A stretch of 44,814 nt of DNA from Polymorphobacter sp. (GTDB lineage: Bacteria; Pseudomonadota; Alphaproteobacteria; Sphingomonadales; Sphingomonadaceae), in assembly GCF_025362435.1 (NCBI RefSeq), contig NZ_JANYGL010000086.1, forward strand, positions 1-44,814. Reading direction: 5' to 3'. This document shows, piece by piece, positions 11,927 to 25,167 of the stretch. The notes beneath the pieces were generated by a model, which saw only the letters and a program-made list of their open reading frames with translations, was not told the DNA's origin and made no database searches. Both the position numbers and the translations under genes were made by a program. Within the stretch, counting starts at the first letter, position 1; each line of letters starts with the position of its first letter.

Positions 11927-13753
11927 TCATAATGCGATGGTCCACGTGGTGATGATCTGTCGTTGTGCGAGGCCGAGTTTTGACCGTTCAAACCACCAAA
12001 GCCCGATCGTGGCGGCTAGCCAGGCAAGCAACCATGGCCAAAGTCCACCAGCGAAACCTTGAGAGGCTGTTGTCGAGAGGCGGGCAGCAGGCGCCGACGC
12101 CAGACGCAGGGTCGCGTCGCGGATGGCCCGCGCCCGGACGTTGGGCCACGTTCCCGCCGCTTCGACCGCGAATGGATACGCTGTAGCCTGACCCTGCTGA
12201 CGCAAGTAATACCAACCGGTTGTCCGCGGCCAGAACGCGGCGCAGCCTGCAGCCGGATCGTCGACGAGGGTCGTGCTGCCGCCGTCGGGCGCGGTGACGG
12301 TGGCGACGCCGGCGAGGTTGCAGAGCGCGACGCGTTGGCCGACACGGGCTGGCTGTTCGATCCGCGGCGTCGCTTGTGGCTTGCCGCGGCCGAGCTTGGC
12401 GAAGGCGGCGCGCCACAGGTCGTCGTAGCTTGCAGCGTGCCCCGCCAGGACGAGTCGGAAGCTGTCGTCGAGCGGCCAGAGGGCGATGCGGCCTTCGCCC
12501 TCGCTTCGCCACGGTGCCAGCGTCGCGCCGGTCGCGTCGCGAAGCAGGGGAGTCGCCGTCGGGGCGGTGAGCCTGGCCGTCCAGCGGGTTAATGGCGGGA
12601 CGGCAGCGTCGCGGTTGAGGCGTGACGGGGCGTCGCTGCTGCCGGGTCCATCGCGTGCGAGGCTGGCCGCCTCGTCCACCCTCGGCAGGGTAACGGGGGC
12701 GCTGCCCTCGCTCGCCGCGACCGTAAAGCCGAGCGATTGCAAGGCTGTGCGGTCGGGCACCGACAGCGGCCCGTCAATGCGGACGAGGAGGCCGAGACCG
12801 GCGCGGACGGCGGCGAGCATGGCGCTGCGCTCGCCGGAGGTGAGGCTGCCCCAGCTTCGTTCGTCGAGCACCGCGATGTCGAATTGCTGCAGCGTCGACG
12901 GCGATATGGCGAGCGGCGAGTCGCCGAGGGCGAGGCCGCCGCCGGTTGCGATCTGGCTGTGGACGGTCATTCCGGCGTCGCTTGCCCAGCGGCGCAAATA
13001 CTTGGTCTCGGGTCCCGGGGCTCCGGCGAGGAGGAGCAGGCGGACCGGCGGGGCCGCGCTGGTCCATTCAGGTACTGGTGCCTCCTCAATGACTTGCGAG
13101 CCGCTGCGAACCTTCAGCGTAAAGCGCGCGGGTCCGGAAGCGCGTGCCGTACCCGAGACGACGAAGTCACCGGCGGCGTCGGGGACGGCGGTGTCGACCC
13201 GGCGACCGGCGGGGTCGACGAGATCGACTGCTGGGTGCGTGATCCCGCTGACTCGACCACCGACGGTGATGGTGGCTCCCGGAGCGACTGGAGGCGGGAA
13301 ATCGACGCGGATCAATCCCGATGGGGGCTTTCCCGGGGTAAAATCGACCGGAATGCCGTTTACTGCCTCGATATCGCGTGGTTCGAGGCCATCGCCGACG
13401 ATCTTGAGGCGGGCCGGGGCGAAGCGGCGCAGGGCGGTGGCGAGGTCGGGGGCGCGGTCGGCACCAGCGATTTCAGGGGCTTCGGGGAGGGCGACGAGGT
13501 GGGTTCCGCCGACGATCTCGCCGATCGCGCTGGCATGGGCGGTGAGGACGGTCAGGGTGCCTCCCGACTGTAGGCTCGACGGCATCAGGGTGAGGTAAAG
13601 CAGGCCCGCACAGATTGGCTGGGCGGCGAGCAATATTTCCGTCCGCCACGGTCTATCCCGTTCTCCTATCGGCGTTTTCCACGCGCGCACACCGGTCCGC
13701 ACAAGGCCGAACACAGCGGCCACAACGACGATCCCAAGAAGCACAACCGTCAC
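11927..13753 (-). CDS. Membrane protein with a GATase-like domain, last gene of the MoxR/DUF58 operon
   Basis: I do not recognise a named family for the whole 608-residue chain. It begins at GTG 13753, inside a 4-nt GTGA overlap with the preceding gene. Two transmembrane segments are at about 2-18 and 39-57 and a third at about 570-591, with a large domain between them that is probably periplasmic. The middle holds a beta-sandwich-like stretch (about 150-225) and then a class I glutamine-amidotransferase-like fold at about 236-330 (VRLLLLAGAPG...FDIAVLDERSW...GLLVRIDGP). That fold has no catalytic Cys, as in similar domains of BatA-type proteins. The plan resembles an enlarged BatA-like protein. 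A structural or ligand-sensing role in the operon's complex is inferred. Confidence 0.7.
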   Translation of the reverse strand: MTVVLLGIVVVAAVFGLVRTGVRAWKTPIGERDRPWRTEILLAAQPICAGLLYLTLMPSSLQSGGTLTVLTAHASAIGEIVGGTHLVALPEAPEIAGADRAPDLATALRRFAPARLKIVGDGLEPRDIEAVNGIPVDFTPGKPPSGLIRVDFPPPVAPGATITVGGRVSGITHPAVDLVDPAGRRVDTAVPDAAGDFVVSGTARASGPARFTLKVRSGSQVIEEAPVPEWTSAAPPVRLLLLAGAPGPETKYLRRWASDAGMTVHSQIATGGGLALGDSPLAISPSTLQQFDIAVLDERSWGSLTSGERSAMLAAVRAGLGLLVRIDGPLSVPDRTALQSLGFTVAASEGSAPVTLPRVDEAASLARDGPGSSDAPSRLNRDAAVPPLTRWTARLTAPTATPLLRDATGATLAPWRSEGEGRIALWPLDDSFRLVLAGHAASYDDLWRAAFAKLGRGKPQATPRIEQPARVGQRVALCNLAGVATVTAPDGGSTTLVDDPAAGCAAFWPRTTGWYYLRQQGQATAYPFAVEAAGTWPNVRARAIRDATLRLASAPAARLSTTASQGFAGGLWPWLLAWLAATIGLWWFERSKLGLAQRQIITTWTIAL

Positions 13754-15882
13754 GGGGTCATTCGCAGCGCATCGAGGTAGCGGCGGCCCTCGGCGGTCGC
13801 GGCGGGGCGCGGCGCGACCCCTCCCGCCGGGCGCGGCTGGGCCTGCCACAACAGGCCGCGCAGCGCCTCGCGGCAGTCGTTGCACCCGGGCTGGCGGCGG
13901 ACCGCGTCGATCGCGGCGGCGAAGGCGAGGCGGTCGTCGACCCCCGCCGGGCCGGTCCGCAGCCACGCCTCCAACGCGGCGAGTTGCGCCGGGTCGACGC
14001 TGCCGGGCGAGCCGAGCGCACGCCAGATCGCTGCCGGGGCCGGGTCGACCGCCGTTCCCGCGATCGGCGACAGGTCGCGATGCGCGAGGCCGTCGCGCTT
14101 GCCGGTCAGCCGCCGCGTCTCGTCGATCGCGGGCAGCTCCGGCCCGACCTTGGCGACGAACAGCCGCGTCGCCTGCTGGACCTGCTTGATCAGCCCGAGC
14201 GCGGTATAAGCGAACGGCAGCGCCGCCGCCGGGTCGCCCTGCCGCAGGTGCAACTCCGCCTGCCACATCGCGTCGAGCGCGCCCTTCAGCGATTTGCGCG
14301 TCCCTGGATCGAGCAGCGTCGCTGCCTCAGACTCGTCATGGACATGGCCATAATCCGCGAGCGTATCGGCCTCGCTGCCGAACCGCGGCGGCGTCACTTT
14401 GCCGTCCCCTTCGGCGGTTGCGGGAGCAGGGGTCGTCGGCGCATCGGCCGTCGGCGCGCTCGTCGCCGCGTCGGCAGTCGGCGGCGGCGGGGTCTTGCCC
14501 TCCTGCTCCTCGCCGAGGAACTGGCCGTAGCGCAGCCGCAGCAGCCGCTGGTCGGCGCCGATGCTGTCCGACTTGGCGAGGAAGCGCGGCGCCGCGGGGC
14601 GCGGGCGCAGCTTGAGCAGCGCCTCGGCGTCGATGATGATCTGGCGCTCGCTGCGGAAATACGCCGGCAGCGCGCGGGTGACGACGCCCTCCATCCCCAT
14701 CGCCTCGCCCTCGCTCGCGGGCCAGCGGAGGATCAGGCTGGGGCTGCGCGCCGCCTGCGGTCCGGGGTTCCGGTTGTCGGCGACGGTCAGCTGCGCGACG
14801 AGGTCGCTGCCCGCGACGAACTTGAGCGCGGTGAGGTCGACCGCGACGGTGAAGCGCCGCGTCGTCGTCCCGCTGCTGCCGTGGACGGTGACGACCTGCT
14901 CGCGGAACTTGACGTTCTCGCCCTCGCCCTCGGCGATCGTCAGGTGGAGCTGCGCGGTCGCGGCGACGCCGTAATCGTCGCTCGCCTCGAACACCAGCGG
15001 CCAGCGGCGCTGCCCCGGCGTGAGAAGGACGAGGCTGCGGTCGGGAGCGATCACCTTGACCTGCGGCGGGGCGTCGACGATCGCGTCGAGCCGGTGGAGG
15101 CGGGGCAGGGCGACTCCCGCGGCGCGCGGGACGACGCGATAGAGCAGCGACCGGTCGAGGGTGCGGCGGGCGGTCCACACCGCGCCGTCGCGGGTCAGCG
15201 CGATGCGGCCACCGTCGGCGGGGACGAGGTCGGCGGCATCAGGCTGCGGCGCGAAGGCCAGCGTCCATTCGAGGCGCGACCCCTGCGGCGCGCGGATGTC
15301 GAGGCTCGCGGCATTGCGTGGCGGGAGGCCGGTGTAGGCGGGCGGGACAATGCGCAGCCGCTGCACGACGAGGCGCGGCATGCCGGGGGTTGCGGTCACA
15401 CCCTCGCTGGCTGGCGCGAGGCTGGTCGATGCGCGCCGGTGGGGGACGGCGACGACCACCGCGACGGCAACCAGCCCGGCGAGCCACGCGAGGGCGATCC
15501 GGCGTGGCGACCAAGCGGGGCGTAGGTCGGGCATCGCGGCGGCGATGCGGCGCTCGATCCGGTCGCGCTGGAGGCGTGCCAGCGGGGTTAGGGAGCCGTC
15601 ATCAGCGAACAGCAGGTCGGCGCTGTCGTCGAGATCGAGCCGCGTCGCGTCGAGCCGCCCGATCAGCCAGCCGCGGTTGAGCTGCCTTGCCCGCTGGGTT
15701 GCGATGGCTGCGACGACTGCCAGCACGACGAGCGCGACGACGACTGCCGGGACGGTGCCGCCGAGCCGCCACGCGATCGCGGCGGCAACCGCGGCGGCCG
15801 GGGCGCCGGTGAGCACGTCGTCGGCGATCCGCCGCCGTTGCGCCGGGCGGACGAAATCGACGGGGTGGAACGCGGCGGTCAC
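13750..15882 (-). CDS. DUF4175-like membrane-anchored protein
   Basis: A 710-residue protein starting at GTG 15882, coupled by a GTGA overlap to the BatA-like gene. It has hydrophobic segments at about 27-61 and 128-146, then an apparently exported region. Marks of the DUF4175 group are VPPAYTGLPPR near 179 and FEASDDYGVAATA near 298-310. A Pro/Ala/Thr-rich linker lies around 460-500, and the C-terminal third is helical with a GCNDC cysteine pair near the end. No enzymatic motif is seen. DUF4175 proteins commonly accompany MoxR/DUF58/BatA sets, and the function is unknown. The coordinates exclude a 25-residue upstream extension that overlaps the BatA-like frame. Confidence 0.72.
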   Translation of the reverse strand: MTAAFHPVDFVRPAQRRRIADDVLTGAPAAAVAAAIAWRLGGTVPAVVVALVVLAVVAAIATQRARQLNRGWLIGRLDATRLDLDDSADLLFADDGSLTPLARLQRDRIERRIAAAMPDLRPAWSPRRIALAWLAGLVAVAVVVAVPHRRASTSLAPASEGVTATPGMPRLVVQRLRIVPPAYTGLPPRNAASLDIRAPQGSRLEWTLAFAPQPDAADLVPADGGRIALTRDGAVWTARRTLDRSLLYRVVPRAAGVALPRLHRLDAIVDAPPQVKVIAPDRSLVLLTPGQRRWPLVFEASDDYGVAATAQLHLTIAEGEGENVKFREQVVTVHGSSGTTTRRFTVAVDLTALKFVAGSDLVAQLTVADNRNPGPQAARSPSLILRWPASEGEAMGMEGVVTRALPAYFRSERQIIIDAEALLKLRPRPAAPRFLAKSDSIGADQRLLRLRYGQFLGEEQEGKTPPPPTADAATSAPTADAPTTPAPATAEGDGKVTPPRFGSEADTLADYGHVHDESEAATLLDPGTRKSLKGALDAMWQAELHLRQGDPAAALPFAYTALGLIKQVQQATRLFVAKVGPELPAIDETRRLTGKRDGLAHRDLSPIAGTAVDPAPAAIWRALGSPGSVDPAQLAALEAWLRTGPAGVDDRLAFAAAIDAVRRQPGCNDCREALRGLLWQAQPRPAGGVAPRPAATAEGRRYLDALRMTP

Positions 15883-17012
15883 GCGGTCCCCCGCCGCCGC
15901 CCGGTCGCCAGCCAGCGCTCGATGAGGAACATCGCGGCGACGATCAGCGCCAGCCACGACCGCAGGTCGCGCGCGGGCGGCTTGTAGGTCGCGCCGCCGG
16001 TGAGGGGAGCATAGTCGACTGCCGCGACCCGCGTCGGGGCGGGGCGGGGGGCTTCAAGGAGCGCGCGCAACCGTTGGGAGAAGCCGGGTTCGAGCAGTTG
16101 CGGCATCTGCGCCGAATCGAGCGGGCGGGTTAGGCGGACGATCCGGCCGCGGCCGATCGGCTCGGCGGTCGCGAGCACCGCGCCTACTTCATCGCGCCAG
16201 ACGACCGGGGCCGCGACCGGACCGGTGCCGACGACCAGCGCTGTACCGCCTCCGGAAATCCAGTCGCGGAGGGCGGTCGGCAATTCCCCGGGCGCGAGCC
16301 AGACCAATGTGGCGGGGTAGGGCGGCAACGGAGCGGACGGTGGTCCGACTTCGAAACCGGGGGCGCGACCCGGCGGTGCCCAGGCGACCGCGGCGGCACG
16401 AAGATAGCGGACGGCGTCGTGGTGCTCCGGGGTGCGGACGCTGAGCGCGGGGGCCGGTTTCGCCGCCTGGCTGGGGGCGGCGGGCGTCGATCCGGCGGTG
16501 ACCTGCCACGCGACGTGGTGCGACAGGCGGGGGCGCTCGGCGTCGGCGGTGATTTGCGCCGGGACGACGACACGCAGACTCGCCCCCGGCGGCAGTTCGG
16601 CGTCAAGCTGGCGGAGCAGGCTTGCGACGGGGATCGGGCCAGCAGGGCGCGGCATGTCGAGCGCGGGGAAGCCGGGGGCGAGCCAGCGCCGCTCGACGCC
16701 GTCGCCGCGGGGCACCGAAGCGAGGTCGGCACCCGGGACAACCGCGACCCAGTTGCCGCCGTCGCTGCTGCCGAAGACCGCCGGGCGCGCCAGCCACAAG
16801 GCGATGAGCGCGAGCAGGAGCAGGCGGGCGATCAGCAGCGGCCATTCGTCGAAGCGCAGCCGGGTGCGCGGGCGCGGCCGGGCGGCGAGCCAGCGCAGCG
16901 CGGCGAAGTCGATCCGCGCGAGCTCGCTGCGCCGCGCAAGGTGGATGACCAGCGGCACCGCGAGCGCCGCCAGCGCCGCCAGCCCGAGCGGGAACAGCAG
17001 AACCGGGGTCAT
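15879..17012 (-). CDS. BatA-domain membrane protein
   Basis: Inner-membrane protein of 377 residues starting at ATG 17012 (ATGA overlap with the DUF58 stop). The N-terminus is the BatA/aerotolerance regulator domain: a TM helix at about 3-25 (LLFPLGLAALAALAVPLVIHL), the ARIDFAALRWL stretch, then a second TM at about 56-75. The remainder lacks a von Willebrand MIDAS motif; instead LRDWISGGGTALVVGTGPV looks like a GATase-type strand-loop. A third TM lies near 352-370. In related operons such proteins are thought to hold the MoxR/VWA machinery at the membrane. A long antisense-like extension upstream in the same frame overlaps DUF58 and is discarded. Confidence 0.82.
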   Translation of the reverse strand: MTPVLLFPLGLAALAALAVPLVIHLARRSELARIDFAALRWLAARPRPRTRLRFDEWPLLIARLLLLALIALWLARPAVFGSSDGGNWVAVVPGADLASVPRGDGVERRWLAPGFPALDMPRPAGPIPVASLLRQLDAELPPGASLRVVVPAQITADAERPRLSHHVAWQVTAGSTPAAPSQAAKPAPALSVRTPEHHDAVRYLRAAAVAWAPPGRAPGFEVGPPSAPLPPYPATLVWLAPGELPTALRDWISGGGTALVVGTGPVAAPVVWRDEVGAVLATAEPIGRGRIVRLTRPLDSAQMPQLLEPGFSQRLRALLEAPRPAPTRVAAVDYAPLTGGATYKPPARDLRSWLALIVAAMFLIERWLATGRRRGTA

Positions 17013-17899
17013 CGCGCCGACGCCTCGCGCGCGCCGAACAAGGCGCGCAGCGGGGCATCGACCGCCTCGTCGAGAAAATGGGTCGCGAAGGCGACGCCGC
17101 CCGCCGCGAGCCGCGCCGCGAGCGCCGCTCGTGCCGCGGCGAAGCGCGCGACGAAGTCGGCGCGCATCGCCGGGCCGTCGCCGAGGAGTTCGACGCCGGT
17201 CTCGGGGTCGACGAAGCGGTGGCCGCCGGCGAAGGGAAAGTCGCGCTCCTCGGTGGTGAGGAGCTGGACCGCGAGCACCTCGCGCCGCGCCGCCGCGAGC
17301 CGTTCGACCAGCGCGACGCAGGTGTCGTCGAACAGGTCGCTCAGGACGACGACGAGGTCGCGCGCGCCGATCCGCTCCCACAGCGGGGCGAGCTTGTCGG
17401 GTGCCGGGAAGCCGCCGCTCGCGGTCAGCGGCGACAGCTCGACGAGGAGCCGGTCGCGCTGGCGCAGGCCGTTCCCGGGGAGGGCGAGGCGGACGCCGTC
17501 GTCGCGCAGGACGATCCAGCCGAAGCGGTCGCCCTCGCGCAACGCGAGTTCGGCGAGGCAGGCGGCGAGCGCCTTCGCCGCGTCGAGGCGCGACCAGCCG
17601 GGGCGTGCGGCGTCGGATTGGGCCATCGAGGCGCTGGCGTCGATCACGATCCACAGCGCCAGCGGGCTCTCGCGCTCGGCCTCGCGGACGAAGAAGCGGT
17701 CGGAGCGGGCGTACAACTTCCAGTCGATCTGGCGGAGTTCGTCGCCGGGTTCGTAGGCGCGGTACTGGGCGAATTCGAGCCCCGACCCGCGGCTGCGGCT
17801 GGCGTGCGCGCCGATGCCGCTTTGCCCGGCGGCGCGCCGCGACGACAGGCGCAAGCCCCGCAACCGGCTGCGGACCTCGGGCGGGATCAGGTCGACCAC
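17009..17899 (-). CDS. DUF58 domain protein with VWA-like fold
   Basis: A 296-residue cytoplasmic protein. The DUF58 signature YEPGDELRQIDWKLYARSD is at 49-67, and the MIDAS motif DASAS (Asp87, Ser89, Ser91) is intact, so it should bind a divalent ion like VWA domains. DUF58 proteins are the usual partners of MoxR ATPases, linking the AAA ring to its substrate, by analogy with RavA-ViaA and CbbQ-CbbO. The start is ATG 17899, six bases after the MoxR stop, and the stop overlaps the BatA start by 4 nt. Translational coupling suggests a fixed ratio among the products. Confidence 0.9.
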   Translation of the reverse strand: MVDLIPPEVRSRLRGLRLSSRRAAGQSGIGAHASRSRGSGLEFAQYRAYEPGDELRQIDWKLYARSDRFFVREAERESPLALWIVIDASASMAQSDAARPGWSRLDAAKALAACLAELALREGDRFGWIVLRDDGVRLALPGNGLRQRDRLLVELSPLTASGGFPAPDKLAPLWERIGARDLVVVLSDLFDDTCVALVERLAAARREVLAVQLLTTEERDFPFAGGHRFVDPETGVELLGDGPAMRADFVARFAAARAALAARLAAGGVAFATHFLDEAVDAPLRALFGAREASAR

Positions 17900-17905
17900 G
17901 TCACG

Positions 17906-18895
17906 TCACGCTGGAAATGCGACGCCGCGCAGGACCTCGGCAATGACGTCGTCGGCGCTGCGCCCGTCGGCCTCGGCGGCGAACGACAGCAACAGGCGGT
18001 GGCGCATTACCGGCGCGGCGAGCGCGACGACGTCGTCGCGCGTCGCCGCGAGCCGCCCGCGCATCAGCGCCCGCGCCTTCGCCGCGAGGATCAGCGATTG
18101 CCCGGCGCGCGGTCCCGCGCCCCAGCGGACGTACTTGCGGACTTCGCTGAGCGCGGACTCCCCCGGCCGCGTGGCGCGGACGATGCGGGTTACCCACAGC
18201 AGCAGGTCGGGCCCGACGTGGACGTCGCGGACCAGCGCCTGGAGCTCGACGACGGCGGCGGCGTCCATCACCCGCGGCACCTTCGCGCCCACCCCGCCGG
18301 TCGTCGCGACGAGGATGTCGCGCTCCTCGGCCTCGCTCGGGTAATCGACGCGGATGTTGAGCAGGAAGCGGTCGAGCTGCGCCTCGGGGAGGGGGTAGGT
18401 GCCCGCCTGCTCGATCGGGTTCTGCGTCGCGAGGACGAAGAACGGGTCGGGCAAAACGTGGGTCACCCCGGCGTAGCTGACGGTCTTTTCCTGCATCGCC
18501 TCGAGCAGCGCCGCCTGCGTCTTCGGCGGGGTCCGGTTGAGCTCGTCGGCGAGGAGCAGGTTGGTGAAGATCGGCCCCGGCTGGAAGCGGAAGCTGCGGT
18601 GCCCGGTGCCGTGGTCCTCCTCGAGCAGTTCGGTGCCGAGGATATCGCTCGGCATCAGGTCGGGGGTGAACTGGACGCGGTGGAACTGGAGCTCGAGCGC
18701 CGCGCCGAGCGAGCGGACGAGGAGGGTCTTGCCGAGCCCTGGGACGCCTTCGAGCAGGCAATGCCCGCCCGCGAGGAGCCCGATCAGCAACTGTTCGACG
18801 ACGTCGTCCTGCCCGACGATCGCGGTCGCGATCGCCCGGCGCAGGTCGCCGAGCCGCGCCAGCCGCGCTTCGACGTCGGCTTCGGAAATCGTCAT
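17906..18895 (-). CDS. MoxR family AAA+ ATPase
   Basis: Hexameric AAA+ ATPase of the MoxR branch, 329 residues. Walker A is GVPGLGKT (50-57), Walker B LLLADELNR (113-121), sensor 1 LATQNPIEQAGTYPLPEAQLD, and the pre-sensor-1 insert region PDLMPSDILGTEL is normal. MoxR proteins remodel or activate partner complexes (cofactor insertion, metal loading) together with VWA-type adaptors, here the adjacent DUF58 protein. It starts at ATG 18895, 22 nt after the DUF4159 gene. All nucleotide-binding residues are present. Confidence 0.95.
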   Translation of the reverse strand: MTISEADVEARLARLGDLRRAIATAIVGQDDVVEQLLIGLLAGGHCLLEGVPGLGKTLLVRSLGAALELQFHRVQFTPDLMPSDILGTELLEEDHGTGHRSFRFQPGPIFTNLLLADELNRTPPKTQAALLEAMQEKTVSYAGVTHVLPDPFFVLATQNPIEQAGTYPLPEAQLDRFLLNIRVDYPSEAEERDILVATTGGVGAKVPRVMDAAAVVELQALVRDVHVGPDLLLWVTRIVRATRPGESALSEVRKYVRWGAGPRAGQSLILAAKARALMRGRLAATRDDVVALAAPVMRHRLLLSFAAEADGRSADDVIAEVLRGVAFPA

Positions 18896-18917: not shown

Positions 18918-19634
18918 TCACGAGGTGAGGGCGTACATCACGATGTTGACCCCGAATTTGGTGTTGTCCTCGGCGAGGAAACGCTTGTTGTGCCAGTCAT
19001 AGTCCCACTCGCAGCCGTAATCCTTGTTGCTGTAGAGCAGGCCGAGGCGGCCATCGATCGTGATCCCGCGCAGGTAATCGTGGATCAGGTCGTCGCCCCA
19101 GCCATTGAGCTCGAAGGCAGTGTTGGGCGGGCCGTCGACCTTGAAGAAGCTGCGGAAGACCGGGTGGTCGGGCTTCAACCGCTTCAATGCGGCGGGGCCG
19201 AAGATCGCCGCCATCTGCCGCTCGAACGACTTGGCGAACAGGCCGTCGATGTCGTGGTTGCAGTCGTCGACGAGGACGAAGCCGCCGTTCCGCACATAAC
19301 GTTCGAAGTTGCGCCGCTCGGCGGGGTTGAACTCGACCAGCTTGTGCCCGGTCATGTAGCAGAACGGCGCGGTCAGCATCGTCGGGTCGGCGAGCGCAAC
19401 GATGCGCTCCTTCGGGTCGACGCGCAGGCTGGTGTAGTCGATCAGCGAGGTGATCAGGTTCGACGGCATCCGCTGGTCGAGATCCCAGTCACCCGACTCG
19501 TACTTGAGCCGGGTGAACCAGAAGTCGTAGCCGCGCGCGACCGCTCCCGCCGCGCGCAGCGGAGCCTCGAGCAGCGCCCCGGCGAGACCGCCGGCAGCCA
19601 AGCGCAAAAAGTCCCCCCGGGTCAGACCCGGCAT
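18918..19634 (-). CDS. Exported DUF4159 domain protein
   Basis: A 238-residue protein from ATG 19634. The N-terminus MPGLTRGDFLRLAAGGLAG looks like a Tat signal, but the second Arg of the pair is Gly (Thr-Arg-Gly-Asp-Phe-Leu). The body is a DUF4159 domain, related to class I GATase folds: FWFTRLKYESGDWD, ADPTMLTAPFCYMTGH, NGGFVLVDDCNHD, and a conserved C-terminal GLLYSNKDYGCEWDYDW. DUF4159 proteins travel with TldD/TldE and MoxR sets; the biochemical role is unknown. The gene starts 5 nt after the TldE stop. A longer in-frame extension reaching 20105 overlaps TldE and is not real. Confidence 0.85.
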   Translation of the reverse strand: MPGLTRGDFLRLAAGGLAGALLEAPLRAAGAVARGYDFWFTRLKYESGDWDLDQRMPSNLITSLIDYTSLRVDPKERIVALADPTMLTAPFCYMTGHKLVEFNPAERRNFERYVRNGGFVLVDDCNHDIDGLFAKSFERQMAAIFGPAALKRLKPDHPVFRSFFKVDGPPNTAFELNGWGDDLIHDYLRGITIDGRLGLLYSNKDYGCEWDYDWHNKRFLAEDNTKFGVNIVMYALTS

Positions 19635-19639
19635 TCGGC

Positions 19640-20974
19640 TCAGACCGCGTCCGACAGCGAGGTGAAGGTGAAGTCGCGCAGCTTCATCGGCGGCAGGACC
19701 ATGATCAGGTCGGACTCGTCGCCCTTGACGCGGACCGGCCTGCCCAGCTCCTCGATGTTGTTGAGCATGATCACCGGGGATTCGTTGAAGCGGAAGTTCT
19801 TGAGCGGATACTTGATCTGCCCGTTCTCGATGTAGAACGTCCCGTCGCGGGTCAGCCCGGTGAGCAGCACGGTCTGCGGATCGACCATGCGGATGTACCA
19901 GGTGCGGGTGACGAGGATGCCCTTGGCGGTGGTCTTGATCAGCTCGGCGGTCGTCTTGGTGCCGCCCGCCATGATGATGTTGCCGGGCTCGCCGGTCGCG
20001 CGCTTGCCCTGCTTCTGTGCCCAGTAGCGCGTGTATTGCAGGTTGGCGACCTTGCCGTCGGTCACGATCGGCGTTCGTTCGCGCGGCAGGCCGTCGTCGT
20101 CCCATGGCATGACGAGCGCGTCGGGATGCCCGGGGTCGGCGGTGAAATTGACGCGCGGGTCGAAGATCTGTTCGCCAAGCTTGTTGCCGCCGCCCTTCTT
20201 CGACAGGAAGCTGCGCCCTTCGTCGGACTCGCGCGCCCGGAAGTCGTTGAACATGAATCCGAGCAGCCCCGCCGCGGCGACAGGCTCAAGGATGACGGTG
20301 TACTTGCCCGGCTCGATCGCCCTGGCTTGGGCCGACGCGCTCGCCTTGCGCATCGCGACGCGGATGTCGGCGCTGGCATCGAACGCCTTGGCGTCCTGCA
20401 GGTTGTGCCCGACCCAGCCCGAGCCGCGACCACCGTCGGTCCGGACGGTGCAGGTGTAATCGATGTTGGTCGCCTGCTGGTAGCCGAAATTGCCCTTGCT
20501 GTTGGCGAAGGCGACGAAGCTCTGGCCGTCCTGGAGGAAGCCCGCGGCAACAAGCTTTTCGGCCTTGCACGGCTGGATCGAGTCCGCCGCGACCTGCGCG
20601 CGATATTCGGGGGTGATCGCCGCCGTCGCCGGGCTGAACGTCGCGGTTGGCTTGTACGCCTGCTTGGCGGCCGCGGGGATGAACTCGGGGTTTTCGGGGG
20701 CGAGCTTGGCGAGGTCCTCGGCGCGGCGGACGACACGCTCGAGCGCGGCGTCGTCGAATTCGTTGATCGTGGCGATGCCGACACGCTTGCCGAACGCGAC
20801 CTCGACTGACAGGTCGACGTTGCTGACGATCCCGCTCGTCGAGACGTTGTTGAGCGCGAAGCGGACGTTGCCGTCGATCGAGCCCTTGAGCTGGGCGGTG
20901 CACTGGTCGGCCTTCGACAGCGCGATGACCTTGTCGAGAATCGCCTTGGCCTGCGCCTCGGTGAAGATACTCAT
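19640..20974 (-). CDS. TldE/PmbA-like protein (TldD partner, non-catalytic subunit)
   Basis: A 444-residue member of the TldD/PmbA (peptidase U62) family. It lacks the HExxxH zinc motif, so it corresponds to TldE, which forms the heterodimer with TldD. The N-terminal domain (about 1-180) and the C-terminal half (VILEPVAAAGLLGFMFNDF, SFLSKKGGGNKLGEQIFDP, MAGGTKTTAELIKTTAKGILV) follow the family plan, ending in PPMKLRDFTFTSL. In E. coli TldD/TldE trims unfolded peptides, such as pro-microcin B17 and CcdA. No signal peptide is visible (MSIFTEAQAKAILDKV), although the neighbouring TldD has one. It lies 25 nt after tldD. Confidence 0.92.
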   Translation of the reverse strand: MSIFTEAQAKAILDKVIALSKADQCTAQLKGSIDGNVRFALNNVSTSGIVSNVDLSVEVAFGKRVGIATINEFDDAALERVVRRAEDLAKLAPENPEFIPAAAKQAYKPTATFSPATAAITPEYRAQVAADSIQPCKAEKLVAAGFLQDGQSFVAFANSKGNFGYQQATNIDYTCTVRTDGGRGSGWVGHNLQDAKAFDASADIRVAMRKASASAQARAIEPGKYTVILEPVAAAGLLGFMFNDFRARESDEGRSFLSKKGGGNKLGEQIFDPRVNFTADPGHPDALVMPWDDDGLPRERTPIVTDGKVANLQYTRYWAQKQGKRATGEPGNIIMAGGTKTTAELIKTTAKGILVTRTWYIRMVDPQTVLLTGLTRDGTFYIENGQIKYPLKNFRFNESPVIMLNNIEELGRPVRVKGDESDLIMVLPPMKLRDFTFTSLSDAV

Positions 20975-20999
20975 CTGAATATGTCTCCTGGAGCGCGGA

Positions 21000-22637
21000 T
21001 CAACCGAGCGAGCGGGCGGTGCTGATGACGTTGATGCCGTTGAAGCGCGCGGTCGACGAACCGTGGCTGACCGCCGAGACCTGCGCCGGCTGGCCCTTGC
21101 CGTCGAAGAACGACCCGCCGAGGCGGTAGTCGCTCTCGTCGCAGACGCCGACGCAGGCGTTCCAGAACTCGGGCGTGCGGATTTGGTAGGCGACGTCCTC
21201 GATCATCCCACCGACCTTGCCGTTCTTGATCTCATAGAACAGCTGTCCGCCGAACTGGGCGTTGTAGCGCTGCTGGTCGATCGAGAACGAGCCGTCGCCG
21301 ACGATGTAGATGCCGTTCTCGACATCCTTGATCATGTCGGGGACGCTGAGCTTGGCCTTGCCGGGCAGGAGCGAGACGTTCGCCATCCGCTGGAACTGCA
21401 CGCTCGACCATGAATCGGCGTAGCAGCAGCCGTCCGACGCTTTCTTGCCGATGATGTGCGCCTGGTCGCGGATCACCTGATAATCGACCAGCACGCCGTC
21501 CTTGATCAGGTCCCAGCGCTTGGTCTTGACGCCCTCGTCGTCGTAGCCGACCGCGCCGAGGCTGCCCGGCTGGATCTTGTCGGCGACGATGGTGACGTGG
21601 TCGCTGCCGTACTTGAAGTGGTTGGCGCGCTTGTCGAGCGTGGCGAAGCTCGTCCCGGCGTAGTTGGCTTCATAGCCGAGAACGCGGTCGAGTTCGGTCG
21701 GGTGGCCGACCGACTCGTGGATCGTCAGCCAGGTATGCGACGGATCGAGGACGAGGTCGTACTTGCCCGGCTTGACCGACGGCGCCTTGATCTTTGCGCG
21801 CGCCTGCTTCGACGCGGCGATCGCGTCGGCCTTCATATCGTACGACTTGCCATAGACGACGACGCCGTTGGGCAGGACGGTCTGGTCGGCCTTGTTGCCG
21901 TCGAGATATTCGTAGCCAAGGCCCATCGGCGCCGACAGTTCGGACCGGGTGCGGAACTTGCCGGTCGCCTTGTCGACCGCGGTGACGCGCATCAGCGGCC
22001 AGATGCGGTGGACGTCCTGGTCGATGTACGAGCCGTCGGTCGAGGCGAAATACTTCTGCTCGTTGACCGAGAACAGGATCGACTGGATGAAGTCGGCACC
22101 GTTCGCCAGCGCCGCGGCATTGACGTCGAGCAGGAGCGCCGCCTTGTCCTTGACCGGGACCGACATCGCGCTGGTCCGGATCGGCGCGCGCCACGACACT
22201 TCGCCGACGCCTGGCGTCGGGGCGAGTTGGACCGGGGCGGTCTGGTTGCGCGCATTGGCCTTGGCGATCGCCGCCGCCTGTCGCGCGGCGGTGGCGACGC
22301 CGTCGGTGGTCATGTCGTTGGTCGCAGCGAAGCCCCATGCCCCGCCGGCGATGACGCGGATGCCGACGCCGATCGATTCGGTGTTGACGACGTTCTCGAC
22401 GTGGGCGTCGCGGGTGATGACGAACTGGCGGAGGTAGCGGCCGACGCGGACGTCGCAATAGCTCGCCCCCGCGGCGGTTGCCGCGGCGAGCGCGGCGTCG
22501 GCGAGCGTCTTCTTGACGGTGATGGCGATCGCGCCGTCCACCAGCGCTTCGGCGGCGATGAGCTTGCCGAACGTCGAGGGGAGCACGAAACCGCCGACCC
22601 CGAAGCCGGATGCGGTGAGGAAGTCACGTCTCAGCAA
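21000..22637 (-). CDS. TldD-like metalloprotease with Tat signal peptide
   Basis: Zinc protease subunit of the TldD family, 545 residues from the preferred TTG start at 22637, which has GGAGAG just upstream; GTG 22676 would add 13 residues. The mature part carries HESVGH at 307-312 (genome 21702-21719), the family's HExxxH motif, and the late Cys region FWNACVGVCDESDYRLGGS, which likely supplies the third zinc ligand. The N-terminus LRRDFLTASGFGVGGFVLP is a good twin-arginine signal (Arg-Arg-x-Phe-Leu), so the protease is predicted to be exported folded. E. coli TldD is cytoplasmic and lacks this. It heads the eight-gene operon, and the substrate is unknown. Confidence 0.9.
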   Translation of the reverse strand: MLRRDFLTASGFGVGGFVLPSTFGKLIAAEALVDGAIAITVKKTLADAALAAATAAGASYCDVRVGRYLRQFVITRDAHVENVVNTESIGVGIRVIAGGAWGFAATNDMTTDGVATAARQAAAIAKANARNQTAPVQLAPTPGVGEVSWRAPIRTSAMSVPVKDKAALLLDVNAAALANGADFIQSILFSVNEQKYFASTDGSYIDQDVHRIWPLMRVTAVDKATGKFRTRSELSAPMGLGYEYLDGNKADQTVLPNGVVVYGKSYDMKADAIAASKQARAKIKAPSVKPGKYDLVLDPSHTWLTIHESVGHPTELDRVLGYEANYAGTSFATLDKRANHFKYGSDHVTIVADKIQPGSLGAVGYDDEGVKTKRWDLIKDGVLVDYQVIRDQAHIIGKKASDGCCYADSWSSVQFQRMANVSLLPGKAKLSVPDMIKDVENGIYIVGDGSFSIDQQRYNAQFGGQLFYEIKNGKVGGMIEDVAYQIRTPEFWNACVGVCDESDYRLGGSFFDGKGQPAQVSAVSHGSSTARFNGINVISTARSLG

Positions 22638-22750: not shown

Positions 22751-23605
22751 TCACTCGGGTTTGCGGAACCTGAGGATGAAGCGGGGCGGCGCGGCCGGCT
22801 CGTCCGTCGCCGCGGACCCACCGTCGTCGCCGCGCAGGCGCCCGGCGTTGTCGAGGATGAACCCGGCGCGTGAAAAGTCGGCTCTCACCTTCGACGCCGC
22901 GCTTCCGGTCGCGGCGTCGGCGCGGGGGTCGTCGGACGGCGCGGGATCGCCGACGACGCCGACGATGCCTCCGGGCCTGACGGCGGAGAACAGCTTCTGG
23001 ATAAAGGCCGCGATGTCGGCGGCACGGGCGTCGGGTGCGGTCGCCGATGACAGCCGGTCGAACGCGAGGTCGAGCAGGACGAAATCGAGGCTGCCCGGTG
23101 CCAGCCGAAGCGCGGCGGGCGCGACGGCGAGGGGAGTCAGGCCCGGCGCGAGGCTGATTTCGTTGCTCACCGCCGCGCGCGCGGCCGGGTCCTGCAGCGC
23201 GGCGGCGGGCAGCAGCTCGGTGACCCGGCCGTTGCCGATCGCGGCGCCGATGATCGCGCCGAAATAGCCGGGGTCGCGCTCGACGACAAAGGCGCGCACG
23301 CGGTTCGACAGGCCGAGGAACGTCAACACCTCGGCCGGATGGCGCGCCTCGTCGAGGCTGCGCTCGGCGGGCGAGCGGCGCCTGGTCTCCAGCGCTCCGG
23401 CAATATCCGCCGGTGCGCCGAGTAGTCCTGCGTTCGGCGACGGCCGTTGCGGACGGGGTCCGCCCAGCGGTATCGACACCATCTGGGCGGCAAGCGTCGA
23501 TCCGACGACCAGCGCGATGCCGGTGGCGGCATACCGCGCGCAACGGAGCCAGGCTCCCGGCGATCCGACGAACTTGCGGCTGATAAGCTGTTGCACAGGA
23601 AACAC
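22751..23605 (-). CDS. Degenerate class I methyltransferase-like protein (COG4798 type)
   Basis: About 284 residues if started at GTG 23605; the start is uncertain because no good ribosome binding site is seen. A hydrophobic segment at about 25-43 (YAATGIALVVGSTLAAQ) is a signal or membrane anchor. The region RSLDEARHPAEVLTFLGL matches the entry to the predicted methyltransferases that normally read KPAEVLAFLG...DIGAGGGYYT. Here the Gly-rich SAM-binding loop is replaced by AFVVERDPGYFGAIIG, so SAM binding is doubtful. Later strands (FVLLDLAF, VRPGGIVGVVGD, FILRFRKPE) keep the fold. It is probably a non-catalytic relative. It lies 134 nt after the efflux lipoprotein gene and may be transcribed with the pump. 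Confidence 0.65.
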   Translation of the reverse strand: MFPVQQLISRKFVGSPGAWLRCARYAATGIALVVGSTLAAQMVSIPLGGPRPQRPSPNAGLLGAPADIAGALETRRRSPAERSLDEARHPAEVLTFLGLSNRVRAFVVERDPGYFGAIIGAAIGNGRVTELLPAAALQDPAARAAVSNEISLAPGLTPLAVAPAALRLAPGSLDFVLLDLAFDRLSSATAPDARAADIAAFIQKLFSAVRPGGIVGVVGDPAPSDDPRADAATGSAASKVRADFSRAGFILDNAGRLRGDDGGSAATDEPAAPPRFILRFRKPE

Positions 23606-23739
23606 TTTGCTGTTGCTTGAGCATCGCCGGGCGGCTGGGCTAGCCCCCGCCTGATTCGCGCTCGGGCTGTCGCAATAGAGTGCTTCGTGCCGACGGTCCA
23701 CGCAACGCTTCCACGACCGCCGTCGCCGCTCGCCAAACC

Positions 23740-25167
23740 TCACAGTGCCGAGATTTCCGTCTTCTGCTTGTCCTGCCAGCCGCCGCCGAGGGCTCGGAAC
23801 AGGTCGACCTGCGCGGTGACGACGCGGGCGTCGGACGCGGCCAGCGCCGCCTCGGTGTCAGAGTAGCTGCGCTCGGCGTCGATCAGGCTGAGCGAGTCGA
23901 CGCGGCCTTCGCGAAGCTGGGCGCGGACGATGCGGACCGCGGTCGCGGCCTCGGTTTGTGCATCGGCGAGCGCCTGCCGCCGGTCGAGCTCGTGGCTGAA
24001 CGCCGACAGCGCGGTCTCGGTCTCCTGCAACGCCTGGAGCACGGTCTTGTCGAAGGTCGCCAGCGCCGCGGCGGTGTCGGCGCGGGCACCGGCGATGCGG
24101 GCGCGGGCGGGCTCCTGGTTGAGGAAGTTCCACGACAGCAGCCCGCCGGTGAAGAAGCGGAAGGCGCTCCCGGTCAGCGCGTTGCCGAGCCCGGTGCTGG
24201 TCGATCCGGCCGAGCCGCCGAGCGAGATCGTCGGGTAGAGATCGGCGGTGGCGACGCCGATGCGTGCGGTCTGGGCGGCGAGGCGGCGCTCGGCGGCGCG
24301 GACGTCGGGGCGGCGCGCGAGCAGGGCGCGGCCGTCGCCGACCGGCAGCGGACGGTCGAGGTGGAGGACGGCGGCGCTGGTCCCGATCGCGGCGGGCAAG
24401 TCGCGCGGCGTCCGCCCGGTCAGCGTCGCAAGGCTGAACATCGCCGCCTCGCGCTCGGCTTCGAGCGGCGGCACGGTGGCGCGGACCTGGTCGCGCAGCG
24501 TTGCGGAGCGCGAAGTATCGAGGCGGGTGGCGCGCCCGGCCTCGTAGCGCTTGGCGGTGAGCTGGACGCTCTGGTCGACGAGCTCGACGATGCGCTTGGC
24601 GACGCGGATGCGCTCGGCGAGCGAGCCGAGGTCGGCATAAGCGCGCGCGGTCTCGGCGACGATGGCGACACGGACGGCATCGCGGTCGGCGTCGGCGGCA
24701 GCGACATCGCCGCGGGCCGCCTCGACGCCGCGCGAGATGCGCCCGAACAGGTCGACCTCGTAGGCGACGGTGAAGCCGCCATCGACGGTGCTGCCGCTGC
24801 GGCTGGATCCCGGCAGGGTCTGGCTCGCGGGCAGGCGCTGGTAGCCGCCCTGAACACCAAGGCTGGCGTTCGGGAAGCGGTCGCTACGGACCGCGCGCAG
24901 GGCCGAACGCGCCTTGTCGAGGTTGGCGGTGGCTACGGCGATGTCCTTGTTCGCCCGCAGCGCGTCGGCGACGAGGCCGTCGAGGACCGGGTCCTGGTAC
25001 AGCCGCCACCAGTCGCCGTCGGGCTGGTCGGTGCTCGACACCGCCGCCGTCGTGCTGCCGATGAACGGCGGCGCGGCACTCGAGATCGCCTCGGGGTGGA
25101 CGTAGTTGGGGCCGACCTTGCACGCGGCGAGCGCGAGCAGGAGGGTGAGGCTGAGTGCACGATGCAT
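23740..25167 (-). CDS. RND efflux outer-membrane lipoprotein (NodT/OprM family)
   Basis: Outer-membrane channel of a tripartite efflux pump, 475 residues. The start ATG 25167 has AGGA 8 nt upstream; ATG 25173 is too close to it. A lipoprotein signal ends in LAAC (Cys16) followed by KVGPNYVHP, the standard NodT-family entry. Two repeated coiled-coil halves are visible (DKARSALRAVRSDRFPNASL, ARIGVATADLYPTISLGGSAG), as expected for a trimeric TolC-like barrel and tunnel. It is the last pump gene, 10 nt after the RND transporter stop, so the complete tripartite set is encoded here. Confidence 0.95.
   Translation of the reverse strand: MHRALSLTLLLALAACKVGPNYVHPEAISSAAPPFIGSTTAAVSSTDQPDGDWWRLYQDPVLDGLVADALRANKDIAVATANLDKARSALRAVRSDRFPNASLGVQGGYQRLPASQTLPGSSRSGSTVDGGFTVAYEVDLFGRISRGVEAARGDVAAADADRDAVRVAIVAETARAYADLGSLAERIRVAKRIVELVDQSVQLTAKRYEAGRATRLDTSRSATLRDQVRATVPPLEAEREAAMFSLATLTGRTPRDLPAAIGTSAAVLHLDRPLPVGDGRALLARRPDVRAAERRLAAQTARIGVATADLYPTISLGGSAGSTSTGLGNALTGSAFRFFTGGLLSWNFLNQEPARARIAGARADTAAALATFDKTVLQALQETETALSAFSHELDRRQALADAQTEAATAVRIVRAQLREGRVDSLSLIDAERSYSDTEAALAASDARVVTAQVDLFRALGGGWQDKQKTEISAL

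Follow-up and report, generated by a model that had tools for sequence, protein, structure and literature searches.

The tldD-tldE locus and its signal peptide

The analysed stretch (hereafter the window) is a 44,814-nucleotide stretch of Polymorphobacter sp. contig NZ_JANYGL010000086.1 and carries an adjacent gene pair encoding a TldD-like metallopeptidase subunit and its TldE/PmbA-like partner (Table 1). The span 19640-22637 given for the pair in the original prediction was correct. All three PmbA_TldD domains of Pfam (1-3) were matched by TldD and by TldE. The N-terminus of TldD reads LLRRDFLTASGFGVGGFVLP..., its opening from the TTG codon being given as LLRRDFLTASGFGVGGFVLPSTFGKLIAAEALVDG, and ggagagagacc stands 5' of this start at 22637. 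The leader is a twin-arginine (Tat) signal by its motif, and signal peptidase would be expected to cut between LIA and AEA. TldE opens with MSIFTEAQAKAILDKV.

Table 1. Positions in the window of the TldD/TldE pair, its sequence features and the genes of the same operon
Feature	Position	Strand	Remarks
TldD-like metallopeptidase subunit	22637..21000	-	545 codons, TTG start, N-terminal Tat signal
Twin-arginine signal peptide LLRRDFLTASGFGVGGFVLPSTFGKLIA	22554..22637	-	motif in 137/137, site in 131/137 distinct homologues
Metal-binding HESVGH motif of TldD	21702..21719	-	residues 307-312
Asp512 of TldD in FDGKGQP	21102..21104	-	putative third metal ligand, at the position of E. coli Cys454
Shine-Dalgarno of tldE, aggaga	20984..20989	-	9 nt before ATG
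TldE/PmbA-like non-catalytic subunit	20974..19640	-	444 aa, ATG start, no signal peptide, no HExxxH
DUF4159 protein	18918..19634	-	Tat-like leader with single arginine (MPGLTRGDFLRLAAGG...)
MoxR-type AAA+ ATPase	17906..18895	-	conserved operon
DUF58 (vWA-like) protein	17009..17899	-	conserved operon
BatA N-terminal-domain membrane protein	15879..17012	-	conserved operon
Frame with DUF4175-like protein	13750..15957	-	conserved operon

Conservation of the one-sided signal

A lone Tat motif is weak evidence, because a loose Tat rule matched 30 of 441 first-start open reading frames (ORFs) of the GC-rich window DNA. The motif was read across a set of loci made up of the best 80 of at least 579 stretches encoding relatives in named genomes, plus additional stretches. 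With at least 579 such stretches, a single oddity or an assembly artefact was ruled out. By title, the best 80 loci belonged mostly to Sphingobium, Sphingomonas, Luteimonas, Stenotrophomonas, Xanthomonas, Lysobacter, Pseudoxanthomonas, Porphyrobacter and Brevundimonas. Scoring covered 94 loci with 142 TldD and 92 TldE frames, two of the TldD frames (a fragment in L142, and that of L140) having no readable N-terminus in the alignment; 137 TldDs and 89 TldEs were distinct once repeated genomes were set aside.

The RRx motif followed by an uncharged stretch was present in 140/140 readable TldDs versus 0/92 TldEs. Among distinct TldDs the RR was invariant (137/137), a phenylalanine followed two positions later in 131/137, and a site with [AVLS][IV]A before and A[ESQD] after the cut was found in 131/137; the six sequences outside this pattern comprised two near-matches and four from L137 (twice), L138 and L139 that lacked the form. 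The residue two before RR was V in 50, L in 46 and M in 34 (130 of the 137 distinct TldDs read), which fits GTG, TTG and ATG starts. When the Tat rule was applied to 25 canonical TldDs as a control, it flagged one (L016), where the match fell in codons upstream of the start and the printed N-terminus had no RR. The chance origin of the motif was set aside because the motif is conserved. Inspection by eye of three further stretches (L154-L156) gave RR leaders on 6/6 TldDs and 0/3 TldEs. The Tat signal claimed for TldD from one sequence was in this way borne out across the subfamily. An improbable alternative is that the leader works poorly as a Tat signal or serves as an N-terminal anchor that is never cut off, which would keep the pair inside the cytoplasm or attached to the inner membrane. 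The evidence for export is of sequence alone, and the leader is modestly hydrophobic (maximum KD15 1.29-2.01), but weak hydrophobicity is a described property of Tat signals (PMC7317946), and the conservation of the RR, of the phenylalanine and of an AIA-AE-type site in the proportions given above speaks against it.

TldE was found in 77 of the 80 best loci, the remaining three contigs stopping at or just past tldD, and in the subset of loci compared its identity to the window TldE was 69-90%, similar to that of TldD. The absence of a signal peptide, also part of the original prediction, held for 92/92 subfamily TldEs. The aligned first residue coincided with a start codon in 91/92 TldE frames, and a stop lay within 10 codons upstream in 46/92. 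A misread TldE start with an overlooked leader is scarcely conceivable: a further in-frame start was present within 60 codons upstream in 11/92 frames and the aligned first residue was a non-start in one, but none of the 11 upstream starts preceded a hydrophobic stretch, and in the window aggaga stands 5' of the ATG. A missed leader was ruled out for the subfamily, with no upstream start before a hydrophobic stretch in any of the 92. It is also very improbable that TldE leaves by a non-classical route of its own and joins TldD outside; nothing was found in favour of this, and an N-terminal leader was absent in 92/92, leaderless routes being invisible to sequence. Overall, every Tat-bearing pair read carried the signal on TldD alone, and the asymmetry of predicted signals, first seen in a single pair, is confirmed as a conserved subfamily trait.

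Distant relatives and distribution

The same division extended to more distant pairs. In L136-L139, with TldEs 49-63% identical, the signal was still on TldD and none was on TldE; L136 has a tandem D-E-D-E duplication in which both genes were copied as pairs. The pairs of G940 and G1079 (TldD 42-44%, TldE 39-40%) had differing but clear RR leaders on TldD, MKRRSFLGGIGSAACAG... and FGRRRFLHGAGCAACAA... respectively, and none on TldE. In G281 (L140; TldD 43%, TldE 35%) and in two actinobacterial pairs (L150, L151) neither subunit had a leader. No pair read thus had a signal on TldE, whether or not TldD carried one. G385 has a tandem D-E-D-E array. In many loci a second Tat-bearing TldD lay beside the first, before or after tldE; these include L037, L042, L047, L048, L051-L057, L068, L136 and L137.

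On a tree of 41 chosen TldDs, which took in 5 of the 25 canonical controls, the Tat label required 2 changes, the place of L140 being unsure owing to its long branch. The subfamily has a patchy distribution. TldE matches with an E-value up to 1e-25 were found in 14/398 genomes across the phylum (including the signal-less G281), in 4/369 genomes of the class of G359 and in 4/385 of the window's class, the phylum and class samples overlapping. Plasmid records held no subfamily member; 25 records matched at 22-29% identity, and two actinobacterial plasmid records served as outgroups. Beyond the phylum, the comparison covered two actinobacterial records; similar Tat-TldDs may also occur in other phyla, such as Bacteroidota.

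Canonical TldD and PmbA in the same genome

The first PmbA_TldD domain also occurs in two other proteins of the genome, on contigs 61 and 39, which correspond to canonical TldD and PmbA; by eye, neither N-terminus had a leader. The window pair as a replacement of the canonical one was ruled out, since both canonical genes are present elsewhere in the genome, beyond the reach of the original prediction. Against the canonical TldD of this genome, the window TldD had an identity of about 29-30%. Both window proteins fell short of the canonical NCBIfam equivalogs, TldD with 116.6 and 72.9 bits versus cut-offs of 635 and 513, and TldE with 59 versus 438. In a sample of 99 family genomes, a TldD of the window's own kind was found in four other genomes at 75-96% identity; the next matches were at about 30%, with nothing between. 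On contig 15, TatC is grouped with two proteins of the TatA/B type, and TatABC is present in the genome. TldD and PmbA proteins are often named gyrase modulators.

Active-site residues

The HExxxH motif was present in 144/144 TldDs and in 0/95 TldEs. In E. coli TldD the metal ligands are His262, His267 and Cys454 (PMC5810440). The presumed position of the third ligand was occupied by Asp in 139/144 TldDs and by Cys in 5/144, this position having been set by the GKG motif, not by structure, and a plain four-sequence alignment being ambiguous there. Asp is reported to be able to replace the Cys (PMC5810440). An Asp ligand may suit an oxidising compartment. Cys was found in L140, L150 and L151, which have no signal, and in L152 and L153, which have a Tat signal; Asp is not strictly tied to the signal. 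These five Cys-bearing TldDs were also the most distant ones.

Subunit assembly and predicted co-export

The gap between tldD and tldE had a median of 21 bases over 92 adjacent pairs, and in 39 of these the two genes share one frame. AlphaFold was given 25 of these 39 read-through TldD-TldE chains as input, and the chain folded was that of a relative, L043. The prediction for its 996 residues had a mean predicted local distance difference test score (pLDDT) of 76.4 and a predicted template modelling score (pTM) of 0.81. The latter fits assembly of TldD with TldE, as subunits placed without confidence would presumably score much lower. The TldE half resembled known TldE and TldD structures (Z 25.3 with 6j6a, 21.1 with 5nj9 chain D; Foldseek likewise), and the TldD half was barely covered in the VIA-align list.

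The E. coli TldD/TldE (PmbA) heterodimer (MEROPS M103, PDB 5NJ5) is the closest point of comparison. The two systems share the TldE fold, the three Pfam domains of each subunit and an HExxxH confined to TldD; the window pair differs in the Tat signal on TldD, in Asp for Cys454, in the adjacency of its genes and in that its genome encodes canonical copies separately. E. coli TldD/E is active only with both subunits, which form a hollow ball about 65 Å across (PMC5810440). Co-export of folded TldE with TldD through the Tat pathway (hitchhiking), as a second, envelope-side TldD/E, is probable on the present sequence comparisons. It is the simplest account because the pair is conserved, has one signal, includes a TldE of the kind required for activity in E. 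coli, and would use a pathway that exports folded proteins. The proposal that TldE leaves folded with TldD was in this respect partly supported, by the one-sided signal, the presence of TldE at all but the three truncated loci of the best 80, the retained division of the active site and the paired fold.

Several points weigh against co-export. The fold comes from the read-through chain of a relative (L043), and its TldD half has low-confidence segments. A TldE-DUF4159 read-through chain, intended as a control (10 rows), gave a pLDDT of 57.2 and a pTM of 0.38 and leaves no valid control, because the C-terminal half of TldE itself was unfolded there and alignment depth is a confounder. TldD and TldE are each reported to be able to form homodimers, and an active Sulfolobus TldD homodimer is cited in the same source (PMC5810440). 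In Gluconobacter oxydans, bioleaching fell by 92% without canonical tldD and by 63% without tldE (PMC8602642), which suggests that TldD may work partly without TldE. Finally, many loci have two TldDs for one TldE. These observations bear on the main rival, in which TldD would be exported alone and act as a homodimer or a TldD1-TldD2 pair; TldE would remain in the cytoplasm, where it would chaperone assembly or serve as an inhibitor and let go of TldD ahead of export. The TldD homodimers, the milder G. oxydans tldE mutant and the two-TldD loci count in its favour, as do the cytoplasmic proofreading chaperones that serve many Tat substrates (PMC4273604). It is nevertheless unlikely, given that both E. 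coli subunits are required for activity, that TldE retains a full fold and, in the loci compared, an identity similar to that of TldD, and that the tandem duplication in L136 copies the genes as pairs. In addition, the pairs without a TldD signal (L140, L150, L151) are likewise without a TldE signal, which fits co-location of the subunits but is no proof of it.

Known Tat hitchhikers include HybO/HybC and PaoABC, which resemble the window pair in having the Tat signal on one subunit and none on the partner or partners (PMC4273604, PMC10924467). They differ as redox enzymes with cofactors, the window pair being a metallopeptidase whose export is predicted from its genes. The original prediction regarded a hitchhiking protease subunit as unusual; co-export outside oxidoreductases has a related case in PlcR/PlcH. 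PlcH of Pseudomonas aeruginosa is a Tat-secreted hydrolase that heterodimerises with its partner, and PlcR is described as a phospholipase secretion chaperone, not a protease subunit (PMC2673038), the likeness being drawn irrespective of any signal of PlcR's own. The canonical TldD/E of G. oxydans act in the supply of pyrroloquinoline quinone, with no claim of export in the available portions of that source (PMC8602642). Among open-licence papers, no Tat-borne TldD was found. The window pair would, to our knowledge, be the first hitchhiking protease complex.

The conserved operon

The pair stands at the head of an operon with the conserved order tldD-tldE-DUF4159-moxR-DUF58-batA-DUF4175. At loci with room for the gene in question, moxR was present in 82/82, DUF58 in 78/78, BatA in 67/72 and DUF4175 in 13/13, counts which take in the window and some repeated genomes; BatA was absent from L118 and from L136-L139. 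The operon genes were not found beside L140 and L150-L153, some of those stretches being short.

The DUF4159 leader of the window reads TRGDFLRLAAGG. Among 83 distinct DUF4159 N-termini, 55 have A, S or G in place of the second arginine but otherwise match the Tat motif (TRAEFLRLM...), 21 had RR by pattern and those of L067, L110 and L111 had RR by eye; L136 had no leader. The leader is possibly a natural one-arginine Tat signal, or else a Sec signal. For DUF4159 itself no literature was found among open-licence papers. A 779-aa frame at 11927-14266 (-) had no Pfam match, and nine other loci encode relatives of it at 24-73% identity. Directly upstream of tldD, a 330-aa frame at 22751-23743 (-) had no match in Pfam or NCBIfam and was seen only in the window among the loci examined.

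The moxR/vWA operons (Rhizobium leguminosarum RL3499-RL3502; BatI) are alike in that MoxR adjoins vWA-type and BatA-type proteins, and differ, as compared by gene content, in that the window operon is headed by the TldD/E pair and DUF4159. MoxR operons of R. leguminosarum are reported to influence cell shape and envelope integrity (PMC5700661, PMC3893208). In Stenotrophomonas maltophilia, an uncharacterised operon that encodes two TldDs together with a putative protease and an ATPase of the MoxR type was lower in biofilms and was discussed in terms of gyrase inhibition (PMC7688217). From its gene content, it appears to be the same operon, and it is the sole mention of such an operon found in the literature searched.

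Proposed pathway and its significance

In the proposed pathway, the catalytic TldD and the non-catalytic TldE would be co-produced from the tight operon, and the closed heterodimer would fold and be loaded with metal in the cytoplasm, by analogy with E. coli TldD/E. The Tat signal of TldD would then carry the whole folded pair across the Tat translocon, TldE travelling as a hitchhiker, and signal peptidase would cleave after LIA. On the envelope side, the pair may trim or degrade unfolded peptides, in a pathway that may be shared with the DUF4159, MoxR, DUF58, BatA and DUF4175 proteins of the operon. For the window pair itself, heterodimer assembly, export, cleavage and function are all presumed steps. 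A broader view, which we regard as evenly poised, is that this widespread clade has turned into an envelope-side peptidase in which pairing serves as an export licence: TldE would leave only on TldD, and no enzyme but the assembled and metal-loaded form would be exported. In the core clade this change may have been accompanied by the replacement of the oxidation-prone Cys by Asp and by the MoxR-linked envelope operon, with its DUF4159 protein bearing a Tat-like leader with one arginine.

If these TldDs leave the cytoplasm, the gyrase-inhibition reading of the S. maltophilia operon would fail, and the operon would instead be an envelope peptidase system. Co-export, if true, would extend Tat hitchhiking to a protease whose untagged subunit is conserved across many genera, and would provide a natural pair for probing Tat proofreading of assembly.

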